Notes under the pieces: model-generated
Told to the model about the DNA's origin: nothing
Database searches by the model: none
What the model saw: only the letters and a program-made list of their open reading frames with translations
Shown: positions 13,123 to 46,535 of the stretch, piece after piece
Position numbering within the stretch: position 1 is the stretch's first letter
Layout of the letters: each line of letters starts with the position of its first letter
Assembly: GCA_017964785.1 (NCBI GenBank)
Contig: JAGCRH010000030.1
Span: forward strand, 1-47,662
DNA: 47,662 nucleotides
Origin: Prevotella sp.
GTDB lineage: Bacteria > Bacteroidota > Bacteroidia > Bacteroidales > Bacteroidaceae
Reading direction: 5' to 3'
Program-made: the position numbers and the translations under genes

Positions 13123-14551
13123 GATGATCAATGCAAGGGCCAGAAAACCGGAATGGTCGATGGCGGAGCCTGTGAACTTCTGTTTGGAGGAAGGTGAGCA
13201 TATCGCCATCATTGGCAGAAACGGATCAGGCAAGAGTCTGTTCGTGGATATGATCACGGGGCGTCATCCTGCCTTTCCTGATATGGTGAAATACGCCTTC
13301 GACGAGCCTTACAATAATCTGAAACATATCTCCTTCCGGGATACCTATGGTGGAGACAATGACCGAACCTATTTCCTCCAACAGCGCTGGAACCAGATGG
13401 AGATTGATGAAGAAACGCCTACCGTCGGCCAAAAACTCGAGGAAGCCTTCCAACTGGCAGGTGAAGATACGGCAGAGCGAAGAGCCTTGCAACACCACAT
13501 CTATCAGTTGTTCCATCTGAAACCGCTATTGGATAAATACGTTATCTTGCTTTCAAGCGGAGAACTCCGCAAGTTTAAACTTGCCGCCTCACTTTTCACC
13601 CATCCGAAGGTGCTGATTATGGAGAACCCCTTTATCGGACTAGATGCAGAGACGAGAGATCAGTTGAAAGAACTGATGACGATGCTGGCCAAGGAACAGG
13701 GACTGCAAATCATACTCGTATTGGCAAAGACGGATGAGATTCCCGACTTCATCACACATGTCGTGGAGGTGAAGGAAATGAAGGTTCTGCCAAAGTCAGA
13801 GGTAAGAAGTAAGAGGTTAGAGGTAAGAGAACACCCTCAGCCACAGACCATTTCTCTCACCTCTCACCACTCATCACTCACCACAAAATCCGAGGTCATC
13901 CGATTCAACAACGTCACCATCCGCTATGGAGAGCGAACGATATTGAAGGATCTCGACTGGACAGTGAGGAAAGGTGAACACTGGTCACTATCCGGACAAA
14001 ACGGCTCCGGTAAGTCTACCCTACTCTCCCTCGTTTGTGCCGACAACCCGCAGAGTTATGCCTGCGACATCGCCCTGTTTGGGCATAAACGCGGCTCAGG
14101 AGAAAGCATCTGGGACATCAAGCGCCATATCGGCTACGTCTCACCTGAGATGCACCGTAGTTACAAGCAAAACATCCCGTCGATTCAGATTGTGGCCAGC
14201 GGACTGAAAGACACCATCGGACTCTACACCCGTCCCAACGAGGCAGAGAAGGAACAATGCCGGAAATGGATGAATGTCTTTGGTGTCGGTCATTTAGTAG
14301 AACGCAGGTTCATGGAGATGTCAAGCGGTGAGCAACGACTTGTCCTATTGGCAAGAGCCTTCGTTAAAGAGCCCGACCTGCTGATTCTCGACGAACCGTT
14401 ACACGGACTGGATGATGAGAACCGCAGGATGGTGAAGGCTGTGGTGGATAAGTACTGTCAGAATTCTGATGTCACACTCATTTATGTGACCCATTATCAA
14501 AATGAGTTACCAACATGCATTGATAACTCATTGTATCTGAAAAAGAATTAG
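13109..14551 (+). CDS. Tandem ABC ATPase, ModF-like
   Basis: The 480 residues hold two ABC ATPase domains in one soluble chain, the architecture of E. coli ModF. Domain 1 has GRNGSGKSL (near residue 35), [11 protein letters not shown] and VLIMENPF, where the Walker B glutamate position reads EN rather than DE. Domain 2 has [10 protein letters not shown] (near 295), [26 protein letters not shown] and an H-loop histidine in YVTHYQNE. No membrane partner is nearby and the function is not established; ModF itself is linked loosely to molybdate genes. The linker between the domains (residues about 229-262, [13 protein letters not shown], then [11 protein letters not shown]) is encoded by two blocks of intergenic-type short repeats at 13796-13891. 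The gene overlaps the ruvC end by 14 bp. Confidence 0.87.
13796..13891. repeat. Intergenic-type short repeats inside the ModF-like ORF
   Basis: The first block repeats AGAGGTAAGAAGTAAGAGG-like heptamers (13799-13830). The second (13856-13884) repeats CTCACCTCTCACCACTCATC-like units, the same kind of sequence as CACTCTTCACTCTTCAC before yihY at 29483-29500. The reading frame is open across the whole stretch. Confidence 0.7.
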
Positions 14552-21497: not shown

Positions 21498-23099
21498 CTA
21501 TTTTTTTTGCAAATAAGCCGCAGCCATTTCCGCACAGCGTTCTCCATCGACACCTGCCGAGACGATTCCCCCAGCGTATCCGGCACCCTCGCCACAGGGG
21601 AAAAGTCCTTGAATACGAATATGTTGCAGCGTCTCTCGATCTCTCACGATGCGCACCGGACTACTGGTTCGAGTCTCTACGGCAATCAGCACCGCCTCGT
21701 TGGTCAAAAAACCATGTGCATTACGTCCAAAGGTCTTAAAACCCTCTTGCAACCGGTGGGAAATCATCTTCGGCAACCAGAAATGGAGAGGACTCGATAT
21801 CAGTCCTGGGGCATACGACGACTTGGGCAGGTCATAACTCAACTTCCCGTTCACGAAATCTGCCATCCTTTGTGCCGGAGCCGTCTGCCGCATATTTCCC
21901 TGTTGCCAGCATATCTTTTCAAGTTCTTCCTGAAATTGAAGAACTTTTAATTGAGAATTGACAATTGATAATTGAAAATTAGAATTATCCATTATCCATT
22001 TTCCATTATCCATTGAATCAACGTCTTCTGGCCTCACTTCGACCACCATCCCAGAGTTCGACCACGCCGTTCCCCGACTCGCCGGACTCATCCCATTCAC
22101 CACAATCTGCTCCTTATCTGTTGCTGCCGGAATGACAAAACCACCTGGACACATACAGAACGAATACACGCCCCGACCTTCCACCTGCGTCACCATCGCA
22201 TACTCTGCGGCAGGCAGATACTTGCCTCTTCCCTGTTTATTATGGTACTGAATCTGATCTATCAATTGTGACGGATGTTCCAGTCGCACACCCACTGCAA
22301 TGCCTTTCGCCTCTATCTCTATCTTCGCTTCAGCCAAATATCTGTAAACGTCTCGTGCTGAGTGACCTGTGGCGAGTATTATGGGGCCAACATATTCTCT
22401 GTCAGCAATGCATCCAACGACCTTATCGCCATTGAGAATCAACTGTGTCATCTTCGTCTGAAAATATACCTCGCCCCCACAATTAATAATCGTGTTCCGC
22501 ATGGCCTCGATCACCTTCGGCAACCTGTCTGTGCCAATATGCGGATGGGCATCCGCCAGTATCGCCGTCGAGGCTCCATGCTGACAGAACACATTCAGGA
22601 TCTTGTCCGTATTGCCCCGTTTTTTTGAACGGGTGTAGAGTTTCCCGTCCGAGTAGGCGCCTGCCCCACCCTCACCGAAACAGTAGTTGCTCTCAGGGTC
22701 CACCTTCTGTGTCTTTGTGATGTTCGCCAAGTCCTTCTTACGCTCATGCACATTCTTGCCCCTTTCCAGCACAATAGGCCTGTAACCGAGTTCTATCAGT
22801 CGCAGCGCAGCAAACAGTCCTCCGGGACCTGCACCCACAACAATTACCTGTGGCCGTCCCTCCACATTCGGATAGTCCGTATGCTGGTATTCATCGTCGT
22901 GCGGCTGCTCATTGATATATATACGCACTTTCAGGTTCACGTATATCTGCCGTTGGCGGGCATCGATGCTCCGTTTCAGGATTCTCACGCCATAGATCGT
23001 CCTCACGTCAAAACCCTGCTCCTGAGCGAGATAAGCCTTCAACCTATCCTCTTGTGCCGCAACCTCTGGCACCACCCGTATCTGATACTCATTCGTCAT
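21498..23099 (-). CDS. FAD-dependent oxidoreductase (COG2509-type)
   Basis: The protein has 533 residues from the ATG at 23099 (MTNEYQIRVVPEVAAQEDRL). The dinucleotide-binding motif VVGAGPGGLFAALRL lies at residues 87-101. Family features follow: ERGKNVHERKKD, NYCFGEGGAGAYSDGKLYTR, GHSARDVYRYL, CMCPGGFVIPAATD, and the C-terminal FAD contact FPCGEGAGYAGGIVSAGVDG. The substrate is unknown. The 29-residue upstream extension is rejected because a promoter box lies inside it. Residues about 361-386 (NGKWIMDNSNFQLSIVNSQL) are encoded by intergenic-type repeats (21938-22013). The predicted transcription start near 23101 would make the mRNA nearly leaderless. Confidence 0.9.
   Translation of the reverse strand: MTNEYQIRVVPEVAAQEDRLKAYLAQEQGFDVRTIYGVRILKRSIDARQRQIYVNLKVRIYINEQPHDDEYQHTDYPNVEGRPQVIVVGAGPGGLFAALRLIELGYRPIVLERGKNVHERKKDLANITKTQKVDPESNYCFGEGGAGAYSDGKLYTRSKKRGNTDKILNVFCQHGASTAILADAHPHIGTDRLPKVIEAMRNTIINCGGEVYFQTKMTQLILNGDKVVGCIADREYVGPIILATGHSARDVYRYLAEAKIEIEAKGIAVGVRLEHPSQLIDQIQYHNKQGRGKYLPAAEYAMVTQVEGRGVYSFCMCPGGFVIPAATDKEQIVVNGMSPASRGTAWSNSGMVVEVRPEDVDSMDNGKWIMDNSNFQLSIVNSQLKVLQFQEELEKICWQQGNMRQTAPAQRMADFVNGKLSYDLPKSSYAPGLISSPLHFWLPKMISHRLQEGFKTFGRNAHGFLTNEAVLIAVETRTSSPVRIVRDRETLQHIRIQGLFPCGEGAGYAGGIVSAGVDGERCAEMAAAYLQKK
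21938..22013. repeat. Intergenic-type short repeats inside the FAD oxidoreductase ORF
   Basis: AATTGAGAATTGACAATTGA-like units (about 21949-21983) are followed by TATCCATTATCCATTTTCCA-like units (about 21986-22012). Both types recur between genes in this window (for example 46502-46535 and 27152-27181). The stretch is in frame and adds about 25 residues. Confidence 0.75.
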
Positions 23100-23107
23100 A
23101 TTCGCTA

Positions 23108-23139
23108 CAAAGGTACAAATAAGTGAGAAGAAAACCAAA
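23108..23139 (-). promoter_or_regulatory. Promoter for the FAD oxidoreductase, implying a near-leaderless mRNA
   Basis: TACCTTTG at 23115-23108 and TTTG at 23139-23136 on the minus strand are separated by 20 bp. A start about 7 nt downstream falls at 23101-23102, two or three bases before the ATG at 23099. Confidence 0.68.
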
Positions 23140-23189
23140 TAAAACAGGAAAAAACCGTTCAAAACCCAGGAGAAGATTATGCACACCGT

Positions 23190-27181: not shown

Positions 27182-28510
27182 ATGAATTACTACAGTACCA
27201 ATGGGAAGGCTCCCATCGCCGACCTGCACAAAGCAGTGGTTAAAGGCTTGGCTGAGGATCGTGGCCTATATATGCCAGAAGAAATCAAGATACTGCCGAA
27301 GGTATTCTTCGACAACATTAAGGATATGAAGTTCCAAGACATTGCCTACAATGTGGCCAGTGCCTTCTTCGGAGAAGATGTGGATCCCGATGCCCTCCAG
27401 GACATCGTTTACGACACGCTTTCCTTCGATTGTCCAGTTGTCAAGGTGAAGGATAATATCTATTCTTTGGAACTCTTCCACGGCCCTACTCTCGCCTTTA
27501 AGGATGTAGGGGCCAGATTTATGGCAAGACTCCTGCAATATTTTATCCGCCAGGAAGGTCAGCATGAGCAGGTGAATGTCCTCGTCGCTACATCGGGCGA
27601 TACGGGTTCTGCGGTGGCTAATGGCTTCCTTGGCGTGGAGGGCATCCATGTCTATGTGCTCTATCCGAAGGGAAAGGTGAGCCCCATTCAGGAATGTCAG
27701 TTTACCACACTGGGACAGAACATCACCGCCGTCGAGGTGGACGGTGTCTTCGACGACTGTCAGGCGTTGGTCAAAAACGCCTTTATGGACGAGGCGCTGA
27801 ACAAACACATGAAACTCACCTCTGCCAACTCCATCAACGTGGCCCGTTTCCTGCCACAGGCTTTCTACTATTTCAACGCCTACGCCAGAATGCAAGAAAT
27901 TGTAAATTGTAAATCTCTTGTGATGTGCGTACCTTCTGGTAATTTCGGCAATATCTGTGCAGCCCTCTTCGGACATGCCATGGGACTCCCCATCAAGCGC
28001 TTCATCGCTGCCAACAATGCCAACGACATCGTCTTCAAGTATCTGCAGACAGGCAAGTACGAGCCGAAGGCAAGCGTGCAGACACTGGCCAATGCGATGG
28101 ATGTGGGTGATCCGTCTAACTTTGCCCGCATCATCAATCTTTACAGTCAGAATAACAAGTTGACAAACGAGGCTACGCATCATCGTATCACCAACCTGAT
28201 CAGTGGAGCCACCTACATCGACGAAGAAATTAAAGAGGCCATGCGTCAGTGCTATGCAGATACGGGTTATATTCTCGATCCTCACGGCGCTTGTGGCTAT
28301 CAAGCGCTCGCAGACGGACTACAGGAGAGCGAAGTCGGCGTGTTCTGTGAAACCGCCCATCCGGCTAAGTTCAAGGAGAAGGTGGATGATATTCTCGGTA
28401 TCGACGTGGAAATTCCTGACCGTCTCGCCGCCTTCATGAAGGGCAAGAAGCAGAGTATCCCGATGACCAAGGACTTCAAGGACTTTAAGGACTATCTGAT
28501 GAAGCAATAA
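27182..28510 (+). CDS. thrC: Threonine synthase
   Basis: ThrC converts O-phosphohomoserine to threonine using PLP. The protein has 442 residues and starts MNYYSTNGKAPIADLHKAVV. The PLP lysine is Lys107 in LFHGPTLAFKDVGARF. The phosphate-binding loop is ATSGDTGSAVANGF, and SANSINVARFLPQAFYYFNA and CVPSGNFGNICAALFG are family signatures. It follows the proposed homoserine kinase by 30 bp, a gap made of CCCCATTAAACCCATTATCC-like repeats. Residues 239-245 (EIVNCKS) are encoded by AAATTGTAAATTGTAAATC, an intergenic-like repeat in a poorly conserved loop. A terminator follows at 28514-28539. Confidence 0.97.
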   Translation: MNYYSTNGKAPIADLHKAVVKGLAEDRGLYMPEEIKILPKVFFDNIKDMKFQDIAYNVASAFFGEDVDPDALQDIVYDTLSFDCPVVKVKDNIYSLELFHGPTLAFKDVGARFMARLLQYFIRQEGQHEQVNVLVATSGDTGSAVANGFLGVEGIHVYVLYPKGKVSPIQECQFTTLGQNITAVEVDGVFDDCQALVKNAFMDEALNKHMKLTSANSINVARFLPQAFYYFNAYARMQEIVNCKSLVMCVPSGNFGNICAALFGHAMGLPIKRFIAANNANDIVFKYLQTGKYEPKASVQTLANAMDVGDPSNFARIINLYSQNNKLTNEATHHRITNLISGATYIDEEIKEAMRQCYADTGYILDPHGACGYQALADGLQESEVGVFCETAHPAKFKEKVDDILGIDVEIPDRLAAFMKGKKQSIPMTKDFKDFKDYLMKQ

Positions 28511-39481: not shown

Positions 39482-40447
39482 ATGAAATATTACGAGGCAA
39501 TATTCGAATTAAGAATTGAGAATTCAGAATTAAGAGAGATGATGCAGGATGCACGCGATGTGCTGGCAGCCCTTGCAGGAGAGGCAGGTTTCGAGACTTT
39601 CGAGGAAACGGAAACAGGACTCAAAGGCTATGTGCAGCAGACACTCTTCGACGAGGACGCCCTCAAAACGGCCCTCGACGATTTCCCCTTTGATGGCATC
39701 ACCGTCACTTACGACATCCGCGAGGCAGAGGATAAGGACTGGAACGAGCAATGGGAACAAGAAGGCTTTGAGCCCATCGTCGTGAAAAGCGGAGATGCGA
39801 ACAGTGAAAAGTGTATTGTAATCCACGACGGCCGCCATCTCCCCGAAAATCTCTCAATTCTTAATTCTAAATTCTTAATTGAAATAGATGCCAAACTCGC
39901 CTTCGGCACTGGTACCCATGAAACCACCCGTATGGTCTGCTCCACCCTCCTTGAACACATGGGGACTGTCCCCTCTGTGAGCAGGGAGCACAGCGACCGA
40001 ATTACAGGGGGACTGTCCCCTGTGTGTTCTCCCCGCGTTCTCGACTGCGGCACCGGTACCGGCATTCTCTCCATCTGCGCCCTGAAACTCGGAGCCGCTT
40101 CCGCCGTCGGCTACGACATTGACGAATGGAGCGTCGACAATACCCGCCATAACGCCGTCATCAATCAGGTTGACGACCGTTTCACCGCCCTCCTCGGTGA
40201 TGCCTCTATATTATATAATAAGGTGGAAGGACTATTCGACCTCGTTCTGGCAAACATCAACCGCAATATCCTCCTCAACGACATGCCCCTGTTCCGCCAA
40301 AAGATGACTCCCAATGCCCGTCTCATCCTCAGCGGTTTCTATACCGACGACATCCCCCTACTCGTGGAACGTGCCGCCACCCTCGGTCTCACCCTCGAAT
40401 CCCAAAAACAAGACAACTCCTGGGCCTGCCTCACCTTCCGCTCATAG
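39482..40447 (+). CDS. prmA: Ribosomal protein L11 methyltransferase with three repeat-derived inserts
   Basis: PrmA methylates ribosomal protein L11 with SAM. The protein has 321 residues, longer than the roughly 280-295 I would expect. It begins MKYYEAIF, with the N-terminal domain DVLAALAGEAGFETFEETE. FGTGTHETTRM, the SAM loop VLDCGTGTGILSICALKLGA, YDIDEWSVDNTRHN and VLANINRNILLNDMP are all present. Three stretches look foreign to the family and match intergenic repeats: ELRIENSELREMM (39506-39537), NLSILNSKFLIE (39851-39882) and GTVPSVSREHSDRITGGLSP (39960-40035). The frame stays open and the motifs are intact, so the enzyme is probably active. Its stop lies inside a downstream tandem repeat. 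Confidence 0.93.
   Translation: MKYYEAIFELRIENSELREMMQDARDVLAALAGEAGFETFEETETGLKGYVQQTLFDEDALKTALDDFPFDGITVTYDIREAEDKDWNEQWEQEGFEPIVVKSGDANSEKCIVIHDGRHLPENLSILNSKFLIEIDAKLAFGTGTHETTRMVCSTLLEHMGTVPSVSREHSDRITGGLSPVCSPRVLDCGTGTGILSICALKLGAASAVGYDIDEWSVDNTRHNAVINQVDDRFTALLGDASILYNKVEGLFDLVLANINRNILLNDMPLFRQKMTPNARLILSGFYTDDIPLLVERAATLGLTLESQKQDNSWACLTFRS
39506..39537. repeat. Intergenic-type AT repeat inside prmA, site 1
   Basis: GAATTAAGAATTGAGAATTC and more units of the same type lie at codons 9-19 of prmA. It is the same family as 46063-46098 and 46502-46535. Confidence 0.75.
39851..39882. repeat. Intergenic-type AT repeat inside prmA, site 2
   Basis: CTCTCAATTCTTAATTCTAA continues with ATTCTTAATTG. 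It is the same family as site 1, in the opposite orientation. Confidence 0.75.
39960..40035. repeat. GGGGACTGTCCCC repeat pair inside prmA, site 3
   Basis: Two exact copies of the near-palindrome GGGGACTGTCCCC (39961-39973 and 40008-40020) flank a 34-bp core. Both are followed by a similar CTGTG or TGTGTG tail. The whole is in frame just before the SAM-binding motif. Confidence 0.8.
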
Positions 40448-40509
40448 GCTGCTTTATGGCTGCTTCTAGGTTGCTTTATGGCTGCTTATAGGCTGCTTTA
40501 TGGCTGCTC
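40445..40509. repeat. Tandem 22-bp repeat, three copies
   Basis: Units at 40445-40466, 40467-40488 and 40489-40509 share TAGGCTGCTTTATGGCTGCT with few changes; the third lacks one base. The first begins with the TAG stop codon of prmA. Confidence 0.88.
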
Positions 40510-40561
40510 TAGGCCTAAGGGTATAGAGGAAGTATAGAGAATCTCATAAGGAAGTATAGAA

Positions 40562-40616
40562 AGGTCTATGAGAAGTCCATGAGAGGTCCATGAGAGGTCC
40601 ATGAGAGGTCCATGAG
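40562..40616. repeat. Tandem 11-bp repeat, five copies
   Basis: Five consecutive units of AGGTCCATGAG (the first has AGGTCTATGAG, the second AAGTCCATGAG) run without spacers. The 11-bp period is close to one helical turn. Confidence 0.92.
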
Positions 40617-40635: not shown

Positions 40636-40700
40636 CATGCCCCAGATTCGGGGCAGATTTCCCCCACCGTGCATAAACGTGCCCCAGATTCAAGGCAAAT
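40636..40700. repeat. Dispersed repeat element, copy 2
   Basis: It contains GCCCCAGATTCGGGGC (a small hairpin) and the 40661-40698 segment that matches 23225-23261. Its core GCCCCAGATT is the reverse complement of the AATCTGGGGC core of the adjacent 42-bp array. Confidence 0.7.
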
Positions 40701-40701
40701 A

Positions 40702-40835
40702 ATTCCGACTCAGTGATTGCCTACCTGAAATCTGGGGCATATTATTCCGACCCAGTGATGGCTTGCCTGAAATCAGGGGCATAATATTCCGACCCAGTAA
40801 TTACCTGCCTGAAATCTGGGGCTAATTATTCTGAC
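40702..40835. repeat. Tandem 42-bp repeat, three copies plus a fragment
   Basis: Units start at 40702, 40744 and 40786, each ATTCCGACYCAGT followed by TRCCTGAAATCTGGGGC-like sequence. A fourth partial copy (ATTCTGAC) lies at 40828-40835. There are no unique spacers. Confidence 0.88.
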
Positions 40836-41142
40836 TTCAAAATGATGTCTCTCAATTTTAGGACAAATCTTTCTCACACGGAGCCACTATGCCAGAAAAA
40901 ACAGGCTCTACATTCGGACATAGAGGCTCTGTTCCCTCCAATAGAGCCAAGATGTTGCCAGCGTACACTTTTTTTACTCCTTGCCGAATGGACTCTACTT
41001 TGCGCCCTGCCTAAGAAACAAGTGTTCCCACACTGGGGAATTTTTGTTGCCTAGGCAAGCCGCAAATTCTATATCCTTATCGACAATGCAAGGGTACGGC
41101 ACATTTGTAAAACTTTATTCCTTGCGCTTATATGATGGCAGT

Positions 41143-41209
41143 TCTGACAGATGGCAGATGGCAGTTAACTAAACGCCAAAAACCTAATTGCCATCTGCCA
41201 TCTGCCAGA
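41143..41209. repeat. 21-bp inverted repeat
   Basis: Arms 41143-41163 and 41189-41209 (TGCCATCTGCCATCTGCCAG) are complementary at 20 of 21 positions, with a 25-nt loop. Each arm is itself two copies of GGCAGAT. No T run follows, so it is not a classical terminator. Confidence 0.82.
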
Positions 41210-41304
41210 AATATCCGCTTTCCCTAAAATAGTCAAAGGAATAGGAACTATCTTCTTACTAAACCGTCATTTTTAGTCCATTGTGCAAAATAATTAGCCA
41301 AAAG

Positions 41305-45185: not shown

Positions 45186-46070
45186 ATAGGCTTTCTCGCC
45201 GATGGTCTCTTGGGAACCGATGGTCATCTGACGGAGGTCGTAGTAGGATCCATTATAGATATTGAAGTCCACATTACCCTTGATGCCCGGCAGACGCCCC
45301 GCATCAGTATGCTGCCAGAACTTCCAAGGACCTTTGTATTCCAAGGAGTCCACATAGTAGTGGGCAATCCAGTAGGGATACTGGTTAAAGATGGAATCGC
45401 TCAAATAGCGAGTCTTGAATTTAAAATAGGTGTAGATAATCGGTTTCACCTGATAGTGTTTTTCCACGATGTCGAGCCACTCCAGCACACTGGCCTTGAA
45501 CTCATTATCGGTCTGATTCTTAGGTTTGTGCTCCACGTCGAGCACAGGGGGCAGGTCGCCATTCTCCAGTTTCGCCACCTTTAGGAAATTATATGCCTGT
45601 TCCTCAGCCGGCGAATGGACGCTGTAGAAATGGTAGGCTCCACGGGTAAAACCGTTCTCACGGGCCTGATAGAAATTCTCGCGGAAGTTCTCGTCGGTCT
45701 GCGTGGCACCTTCCGTCGCCTTAATCATCACGAAACGGATGGGACACTTGTTGATCATGCCCTCGTCCTTTAGTTTGTCCCAGTCGATACGTCCCTGGTG
45801 GTGGGAGATATCGATACCATGAATCTCAAAGCCCTCGGGATAGGACACGTCGCCATAGAGGGCGCGCCAACGGAAGCCAAAGGGGGAGACGAAGAAATAG
45901 TAGAAGAACCAGACATAGCCTGCCACGATGGCTGCGCCGCCGATCCACCATCCCCAGGATGGAACTCTCTGTAAAAAGCGCACAAGCACATTCGGCTTAC
46001 GACGGCCTCTTGGTCCGTGGTAAGTATGGGTCGTTCCGATGCCCTTACGGCGAACAATGCGCTTTTTCAA
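45177..46070 (-). CDS. GH25 muramidase (lysozyme), membrane-anchored
   Basis: The 297-residue glycoside hydrolase family 25 enzyme cleaves the MurNAc-GlcNAc bond of peptidoglycan. A basic N-terminus (MKKRIVRRKGIGTTHTYHGP) precedes one transmembrane segment at residues 41-61, so the catalytic domain faces the periplasm. Catalytic-site acids are visible: Asp87 in GIDISHHQG, Glu120 in MIKATEG, and Asp178 and Glu180 in PVLDVEHK. WKFWQHTDAGRLPGIKGNVD is the conserved C-terminal segment. The likely role is cell-wall remodelling. It lies 14 bp downstream of the four-helix-bundle gene; that gap and the region before its start are made of AATTTAGAATTAAGAATTAA-type repeats. No separate promoter is seen. 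Confidence 0.93.
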   Translation of the reverse strand: MKKRIVRRKGIGTTHTYHGPRGRRKPNVLVRFLQRVPSWGWWIGGAAIVAGYVWFFYYFFVSPFGFRWRALYGDVSYPEGFEIHGIDISHHQGRIDWDKLKDEGMINKCPIRFVMIKATEGATQTDENFRENFYQARENGFTRGAYHFYSVHSPAEEQAYNFLKVAKLENGDLPPVLDVEHKPKNQTDNEFKASVLEWLDIVEKHYQVKPIIYTYFKFKTRYLSDSIFNQYPYWIAHYYVDSLEYKGPWKFWQHTDAGRLPGIKGNVDFNIYNGSYYDLRQMTIGSQETIGEKAYAN

Positions 46071-46098
46071 TTTAGAATTTAGAATTAAGAATTAAGAG
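46063..46098. repeat. AT-rich repeat, left flank of the four-helix-bundle gene
   Basis: GAATTTAGAATTAAGAATTAAGAG-like units. The 18 bases at 46081-46098 (AGAATTAAGAATTAAGAG) are the exact reverse complement of 46502-46519. The block overlaps the start of the GH25 gene and the end of the S23 gene. Confidence 0.82.
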
Positions 46099-46470: not shown

Positions 46471-46504
46471 GAGGGACTCCGCACTTACCAGAGCGAAGCC
46501 CCTC
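46471..46504 (-). terminator. Hairpin after the PPi-phosphofructokinase gene
   Basis: On the minus strand GAGGGGCTTCGC (46504-46493) pairs with GCGGAGTCCCTC (46482-46471) over 12 bp including two G-U pairs, with a 10-nt loop. CTCTTTCC follows (minus), a weak T-rich tail. Confidence 0.6.
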
Positions 46505-46535
46505 TTAATTCTTAATTCTCAATTCTTAATTCTCA
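46502..46535. repeat. AT-rich repeat, right flank of the four-helix-bundle gene
   Basis: CTCTTAATTCTTAATTCTCA continues with ATTCTTAATTCTC. It is the exact inverted partner (first 18 bases) of 46081-46098, and it touches the stop codon of the phosphofructokinase gene. Confidence 0.85.

Follow-up and report, generated by a model that had tools for sequence, protein, structure and literature searches.

In-frame heptanucleotide arrays in prmA and other Prevotella genes as probable parts of small dispersed repeats

Three blocks of repeated DNA lie in frame within the gene for a core enzyme, the ribosomal protein L11 methyltransferase PrmA, in the window (the whole stretch of 47,662 nucleotides analysed here, from a Prevotella draft genome of 2.88 Mb in 147 contigs, 81% complete). 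The locus raises the question of what these blocks are and how they came to lie there. A sequence-only reading had described them as three independent inserts of intergenic-type repeats that spread or expand actively while selection asks only for frame and loop position, and that interpretation was supported in part. According to the present analysis, the blocks are probably small dispersed repeats of the whole genome that tolerate insertion into genes, belonging to an element like a REP dimer with 7-nt arms that would have spread by copying.

The prmA gene and its repeat blocks

The following features were located in the gene, all on the + strand.

39482..40447, + strand: prmA, ribosomal protein L11 methyltransferase, 321 aa (Pfam PF06325, 146.3 bits, 1.7e-42; NCBIfam NF001785, 244.8 bits)
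39506..39535, + strand: E1 (block 1), four GAATTNN heptamers, purine-rich in the sense strand, residues 9-18 (TRF and own scan)
39782..39813, + strand: site A, degenerate AGTGAAA-like array identified by eye; relatives have clear arrays here
39852..39880, + strand: E2 (block 2), four heptamers, pyrimidine-rich in the sense strand, 5' of FGTGTHETT (TRF and own scan)
39961..40020, + strand: E3 (block 3), two GGGGACTGTCCCC and a 34-bp core, 5' of the SAM motif VLDCGTGTG

The NF001785 score is above the cut-off of that model (188) and places the ORF in the PrmA family, with TIGR00406 and three other PrmA models below their own cut-offs; the closest named relatives of the gene are found in rumen Prevotella and Prevotellaceae. 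Both period-7 arrays and the palindrome pair were recovered, and the reading frame is open through all three blocks, as had been described. E2 is the reverse complement of the E1 family, and both are thus one period-7 family in opposite orientations. Their resemblance to other arrays in the window was confirmed at 46069-46097 and 46503-46533, with a best match of 97% over 31 nt. Block 3 had also been taken for a between-gene repeat, and for it no between-gene match was found within the window; its composition was correctly described, the two GGGGACTGTCCCC copies (39961-39973 and 40008-40020, 34 bp apart) being exact. The E3 RNA is predicted to form a hairpin (-51.2 kcal/mol, z -5.9).

To speak of three independent inserts was an overstatement: E1 and E2 share a family, E3 falls into another class, and the relative G018 has E2 letter for letter. 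The run identical to the prmA locus L002 measures 41 nt in genes that are 72.9% identical outside E2, and a 26-nt identical run occurs elsewhere too. E2 swaps out part of a variable stretch (20 residues, compared with 18 in the array-free L011), and the N-terminal segment containing E1 has 35 residues, against a median of 28 in array-free genes. Judged from its letters, the degenerate array at about 39782-39813 is probably a fourth insert. The absence of the blocks from relatives held for E1 and E3, which appear in no other row of a 28-sequence alignment, but not for E2, which is present in G018 and is not a clean addition. Locus L053, which lies outside that alignment and is the best match (79%) among the best 80 of 247 named loci, has no E1; its E2 site is filled by a different array, and its E3 site contains a short GGGGACAGT.

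An AlphaFold model of the protein (mean pLDDT 90.3, 50 sequences) predicts coil at site A and at E3, the latter with low confidence (pLDDT about 53-63), a short helix and the first residues of a strand at E2 (residues 124-133), and the end of strand 1, a turn and the start of helix 1 at E1. The expected loop positions are therefore confirmed in part. Similarly, frame and freedom from stops do act as screens, but selection on frame and loop position only is too narrow a reading, as two of the blocks are partly helix or strand in the model. The DNA directly downstream of prmA contains arrays with units of 11 and 22 nt and three copies of a 42-nt repeat (40445-40616 and 40694-40835).

Period-7 arrays in prmA genes of relatives

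The prmA genes compared came from 60 relatives (30 loci), from the best 80 of 247 named loci and from 299 genus members (26 further loci). A PrmA frame was found in 133 of these 136 loci, and 112 distinct genes were left after 21 with a protein identical to another's were removed; three rows (L022, L028 and L099) with no recognisable motif were left out, as was the partial L023 from the site tally and the tree. Arrays were scanned as self-matches at periods 4 to 22 with a score of at least 12, and 20 codon-shuffled sets served as control. The scan revealed 61 period-7 arrays in the 112 genes and none in the shuffled sets, which argues that the arrays are not due to chance. Single arrays appeared at periods 8 and 12; the multiples 14 and 21 accounted for 38 and 17, and all remaining periods for none. 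When only the smallest period was kept, the numbers were 61, 1, 1, 8 and 5 at periods 7, 8, 12, 14 and 21, with a period-7 array in 36 of the 112 genes; at a laxer cut of 10, 72 arrays were counted at period 7, but periods 6 and 12 then gave 9 and 4.

The four sites E1, A, E2 and E3 hold all of these arrays but one (L097, near the C-terminus), and relatives fill the prmA sites with other arrays species by species, which supports the sequence-only reading. The units include GAATTNN in this genome and L002, CAACTCT in L019, ACTATTC in L003, CGAGGAA in L013 and GATGTCA in L017, and elsewhere AGATGGA, ACTCCWC, CTCTCAC and others, amounting to 2 distinct units at E1, 13 at A, 13 at E2 and 7 at E3. 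Segments with an array are longer than those with none (medians of 25.5 and 14 residues at A, 22 and 18 at E2, 24 and 18 at E3, and 36 and 28 at the N-terminus), and 34 of the 62 best arrays are 29-33 nt long. On a tree of 111 genes built from 272 conserved columns, array presence requires at least 3 changes at E1, 12 at A, 13 at E2 and 7 at E3, compared with 3.0, 22.3, 17.8 and 14.4 for shuffled labels. The smaller numbers at A, E2 and E3 indicate that much of the array presence is inherited, a point against the preferred reading, and 74 of the 111 genes carry no array at the cut used. A general origin as assembly artefacts was rejected, because the complete isolate genome of P. communis E15-14 (L132) has a 52-nt in-frame array at E2.

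Polarity depends on the site. Taking the best array of each gene, E1 and A are purine-rich in the sense strand (3/3 and 24/24), and E2 and E3 are pyrimidine-rich (19/19 and 15/15). The reverse complement of A resembles E2 of the same gene (0.805, against 0.677 when shuffled; 6 of 5000 shuffles, 9 genes) and also E3 (0.792, against 0.707; 46 of 5000 shuffles, 12 genes). The likeness of E2 to E3 within a gene was not above chance (638 of 5000 shuffles, 7 genes), which counts against copying. In L087 the A array, the native IVIHDGRHLP segment and E2 are predicted to fold as a single hairpin (z -9.8), and in L057 (124-1113) the A insert includes an exact 43-nt reverse complement of the E3 insert; a GTAG-headed hairpin was also observed in that A insert. 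The two halves in prmA surround native sequence, which simple insertion does not account for and which counts against the preferred reading as a dispersed, copied element.

Arrays in other genes and genomes

Further arrays were found in the window, as follows.

13795..13884, + strand: inverted pair of heptamer arrays (AGAGGTA.. followed by CTCTCAC..) within the frame of an ABC ATPase gene, 5' of the second ABC domain (279-431)
21949..22014, - strand: two arrays side by side and opposite in polarity, in frame in a gene for an FAD-dependent protein (21504-23186, -)
27897..27914, + strand: AAATTGT array of 18 nt, in frame in the threonine synthase gene
41142..41210, no strand assigned: inverted (CAGATGG)n pair, 17 nt apart, between genes
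46069..46097, no strand assigned: GAATTNN-family array at an ORF edge, of the E1/E2 family
46503..46533, no strand assigned: intergenic array of the GAATTNN family, matching the reverse complement of E1 (97% over 31 nt)

In the whole draft, the exact 20-mer CTCTCACCTCTCACCTCTCA, that is (CTCTCAC)3, occurs at 12 distinct loci, all of them inside genes with a Pfam match: TsaE, P-type ATPase, DPBB protein, LicD, DUF4922/SpoIID protein, HisS, ornithine/DAP/arginine decarboxylase, KdtA, XseA, SufB/D, QueA and GH3. Genes occupy most of the genome, and this result therefore indicates absence of avoidance and not preference. All 12 loci are in the stop-free sense (no stop in any frame), the opposite sense having one stop per unit, and the frame is kept at 11 of them. 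In the exception, the hisS gene (L226, G000:C92:100-1700, array at 799-823), the frame switches and the Pfam matches 66-240 and 238-308 fall in separate ORFs, either through real instability or through an assembly error. Translational bypass was not favoured, as the frame is kept across inserts. The term intergenic-type, used earlier for these repeats, did not fit the CTCTCAC family; only GAATTNN is mostly found between genes or at their edges, with 3 of its 11 loci wholly inside an ORF, 5 at an ORF edge and 3 between ORFs (Fisher 0.0003). GAATTNN units mostly contain a stop, and the avoidance of genes by this family counts against a general tolerance of insertion into genes.

Beyond the window, the genes for a peptidase M3, Mfd and FolK also carry arrays in frame, and 19 array-bearing genes, prmA included, have been named in this draft. 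The 221 kb of this genome analysed, on contigs chosen for repeat hits, contain 27 arrays of period 7, 8 of period 22, 7 of period 8 and 6 of period 11; period 7 thus dominates less beyond prmA than within it, which also counts against the preferred reading. One reversed-pattern control of the repeat search is not independent, as it matches the same arrays too. In other genomes, 60 kb of G016 and 40 kb of G024 contained 3 and 0 period-7 arrays, respectively.

Some arrays were noticed for their position. Three different in-frame heptamer arrays occur in the gene for the exonuclease VII large subunit (L229:356-819). Pyrimidine-rich arrays lie in apparent signal peptides, e.g. MKRLLTILFTFHFSLFTSTAQ, as if giving the hydrophobic core (sites resembling signal peptides at L159:2106-2137, L161:15135-15165, L162:9767-9799, L167:1848-1880 and L223:767-800). 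Non-genic arrays adjoin or sit between TAnnTTTGC-like promoter boxes, and some of these arrays have boxes facing opposite ways on their two sides (L161:250-282, L167:1713-1752, L168:190-219, L170:9908-9938, L172:3309-3340 and L173:4615-4643).

Arrays might instead be kept for a function, either as mRNA hairpins that tune translation or because positive selection acts on the peptide segments or the signal-peptide cores that they supply. The site-specific polarity in prmA, the very stable predicted hairpins, the arrays in apparent signal peptides and the ordered structure modelled at E1 and E2 are consistent with this proposal, but most prmA genes are array-free at the cut used, unit and length vary freely and the target genes are unrelated, and such a function is considered very improbable as the explanation. 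Tolerance would fit these data better than benefit, and the arrays within genes are presumably translated into peptide.

A comparison of 44 genomes, partly chosen for having arrays, has revealed genome pools for the two units tested. CTCTCAC is present in 24 of them and ACTCCWC in 13. A genome with one of these units in prmA always has further copies of it outside prmA (9/9 and 8/8 genomes; Fisher 0.002 and 7e-6, respectively), which supports the sequence-only reading; 15 and 5 genomes have the unit elsewhere only, and 20 and 31 lack it altogether. In an order-wide draw, CTCTCAC was found in 3 of 198 genomes, namely this genome and two others that each had a single hit. With a phage source in mind, IMG/VR was scanned for exact matches to the ACTCCWC pattern, and 29 stretches of viral contigs (L248-L276) contain it.

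Paired arrays were analysed in genomes of the ACTCCWC family (G159, G018, G329 and G330), in stretches that had been picked for paired hits. The pairs consist of a purine-rich arm, an AGAWTACYTY-like end, a variable middle, the complementary end and a pyrimidine-rich arm, and they measure about 80 to 190 bp. The first letters of the core are AGATTAC, AGAATA or AGGATAC in 15 of 20 cases. In-frame pairs were found in genes for a RecD-like helicase (two copies), MetH, UvrA (two copies), SufB/D, an RsmF-like protein and others, and the SpoU methylase has in-frame arms at two places with native protein in between. When UvrA is aligned with its solved counterpart 2r6f, 26 residues of the first insert stay unaligned and fall between positions 465 and 466 of that structure. 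The cores of two elements in the same gene are more alike (0.82, 0.69 and 0.98) than those of different genes (mean 0.55, sd 0.10). In the unpicked set from G330 (29 hits listed) an ACTCCWC array lies in an ORF in 16 of 16 stretches, one of these ORFs (L236) being of doubtful coding status and a minority having been Pfam-tested. Among neighbouring arrays of unlike polarity at most 200 nt apart, all 46 distinct pairs have the purine-rich array first and none the reverse order, and neighbours of like polarity comprise 1 purine-rich and 12 pyrimidine-rich pairs. This set combines stretches of this genome, G330, chosen stretches and prmA loci, and 17 of the 46 pairs come from stretches picked for paired hits.

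Of the palindromic class, exact copies of GGGGACTGTCCCC are confined in this genome to the genes prmA, mfd (C69) and that for 5-formyl-THF cyclo-ligase (C15), with one more place (C107:1604) when one mismatch is allowed; with two mismatches the numbers (27+28) are not far above those of the reversed control (17+23). The ligase gene has a second hairpin, with AGGGACGGTTCTTTTGTGTCA. The sole Y1_Tnp gene matched in this genome (L179:1364-2312) is flanked by perfect 26-bp inverted repeats, of which a further copy lies at 507-532. By eye, the AGGGACGGTTCTTTTGTGTCA hairpin resembles these repeats over about 16-20 nt, and a hairpin at the E3 site of L078 looks similar to that of the ligase and the Y1_Tnp flanks.

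Origin of the elements and comparison with known systems

In the mechanism proposed, the main class would be a half-element made of about four 7-nt units and a fairly conserved inner end, roughly AGAWTACYTY in the best-studied family. Two halves would often face each other, the purine-rich arm first, and fold into one hairpin like a REP dimer. Because a 7-nt unit shifts the frame each time it is repeated, three successive units are read in all three frames, and the cyclic heptapeptide that they encode does not depend on the frame in which the array is entered; as the pair is an inverted repeat, it presents a purine-rich arm, a core and a pyrimidine-rich arm in either orientation. By this arithmetic, neutral to frame and orientation, entry into genes would be screened mainly for stops, for a net length that is a multiple of three and for a tolerant site. 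TGA is avoided in some units by T in place of A at the variable position of the purine-rich arm. Copies would arise from other copies, near or far, after which the arms may change length in 7-nt steps, and local slippage surely contributes. E3 would represent a second, palindromic and REP-like class that is also in frame in mfd and in the 5-formyl-THF ligase gene. Spread by copying is suggested by the genome pools, the core ends, the inverted copies and L057. A bolder version is put forward tentatively, as somewhat short of an even chance. In it, a self-spreading hairpin element tolerates genes by its arithmetic and is kept open by unit variants that avoid stops; it would have entered many core genes of each genome and would go on refilling the same protein sites, and possibly signal peptides, with units that are new from one species to the next.

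Slippage could by itself have produced the arrays if each had started from a chance 7-nt duplication in place, with a polymerase that favours 7-nt steps and variable stretches that tolerate them. Heptanucleotide repeats are reported to be the commonest class of 5-11 nt in most bacteria, and slippage has been proposed as their source (PMC4679880, PMC4692102), so that local growth is possible without copying, against the preferred reading. The length of 29-33 nt shared by 34 of the 62 best arrays in prmA and the frame switch at the hisS array also agree with slippage. However, it would not explain one unit at many loci of one genome and its absence from other genomes, the constant membership of both tested prmA units in the pool of their own genome, the inverted pairs with similar core ends or the L057 gene, where 43 nt of an insert that is not made of heptamers recur exactly in inverted form. 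Slippage as the only process is therefore judged unlikely.

Alternatively, both classes could be ordinary REPs or REPINs that a RAYT (Y1) transposase mobilises, and the heptamers would then be a late addition. The likeness by eye of the Y1_Tnp inverted repeats to the second ligase hairpin and the L078 insert would support this, and intragenic REPs are known, including two dimers in uvrA (PMC3733652). On the other hand, Y1_Tnp had no match at E 0.001 in G324, G332 and G335, 3 of the 13 ACTCCWC genomes and drafts that may miss genes, where 43, 72 and 115 heptamer-family hits were counted. At the 51 ACTCCWC array junctions neither GTAG or its complement nor CGTC was found (0/51 for each), and the complement of CGTC was found at 1. 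RAYT as sole mover of the heptamer class was accordingly not favoured, and this explanation for both classes is quite unlikely; in the genomes compared, neither a mobilising enzyme nor a target-site duplication was found for the heptamer class, Y1_Tnp having no match in 3 of 13 genomes of the family, and this counts against the preferred reading as well.

Under the preferred reading, of dispersed elements spread by copying, in-frame repeats in housekeeping genes may show a route by which repeats spread through essential genes. Earlier cases of in-frame repeats in core genes are chiefly Rickettsia palindromic elements (RPEs) and scattered intragenic REPs. A single genus in which, across many species, the same enzyme site is empty or differently filled provides a natural experiment on the entry of repeats into essential proteins. 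It bears on the origin of new segments, perhaps of signal peptides, and on why seven is favoured in bacteria, and it is a warning for annotators and structure predictors that array segments are not domains.

Several known systems share some of these traits. Like the repeats described here, RPEs are small palindromes in frame in many unrelated metabolic genes (PMC10969869); in contrast, they are about 150 bp long with one conserved peptide per element and are reported to have a CGTC end, whereas here the arms are 7-nt tandem repeats with units that differ between species and CGTC occurs at none of the 51 junctions. GTAG- and CGTC-tagged REPs also form in-frame inverted dimers, encoding 20-30 residues, twice in uvrA and also in DNA ligase and tRNA-related genes (PMC3733652). 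They are palindromic and in frame inside genes, as are the repeats here, but the arms in Prevotella are tandem heptamers with no such tags at the 51 ACTCCWC junctions. One hairpin class here does, by eye, look like the repeats flanking a Y1 transposase gene. PARCELs and the coding palindromes of nematomorph mitochondria are coding palindromes too, but of other kinds.

Porphyromonas gingivalis, a relative of the same order, has in its BrickBuilt MITE a minisatellite within a small inverted-repeat element; however, its unit is of 23 nt and it is reported to be always intergenic. Heptanucleotide simple sequence repeats (SSRs) such as those of cyanobacteria, GGGAATC of Xanthomonas and TAACTGA of Beggiatoaceae share the 7-nt tandem unit, and four units are preferred in Xanthomonas and Nostoc. 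They are described as over-represented outside genes and with one or few units per organism, whereas the units found here are numerous, form inverted pairs with core ends and lie in frame in many of their copies. On the suppression in coding regions reported for them, the families differ: CTCTCAC lies in genes at 12/12 loci and ACTCCWC in G330 in ORFs in 16/16 regions, but GAATTNN is inside at 3 of 11 loci. A search of the open-licence literature revealed no description of heptamer arrays within the reading frames of Prevotella. REPs and RPEs that keep the frame of their host gene were known before, but heptamer arms on such a scale seem to be new.
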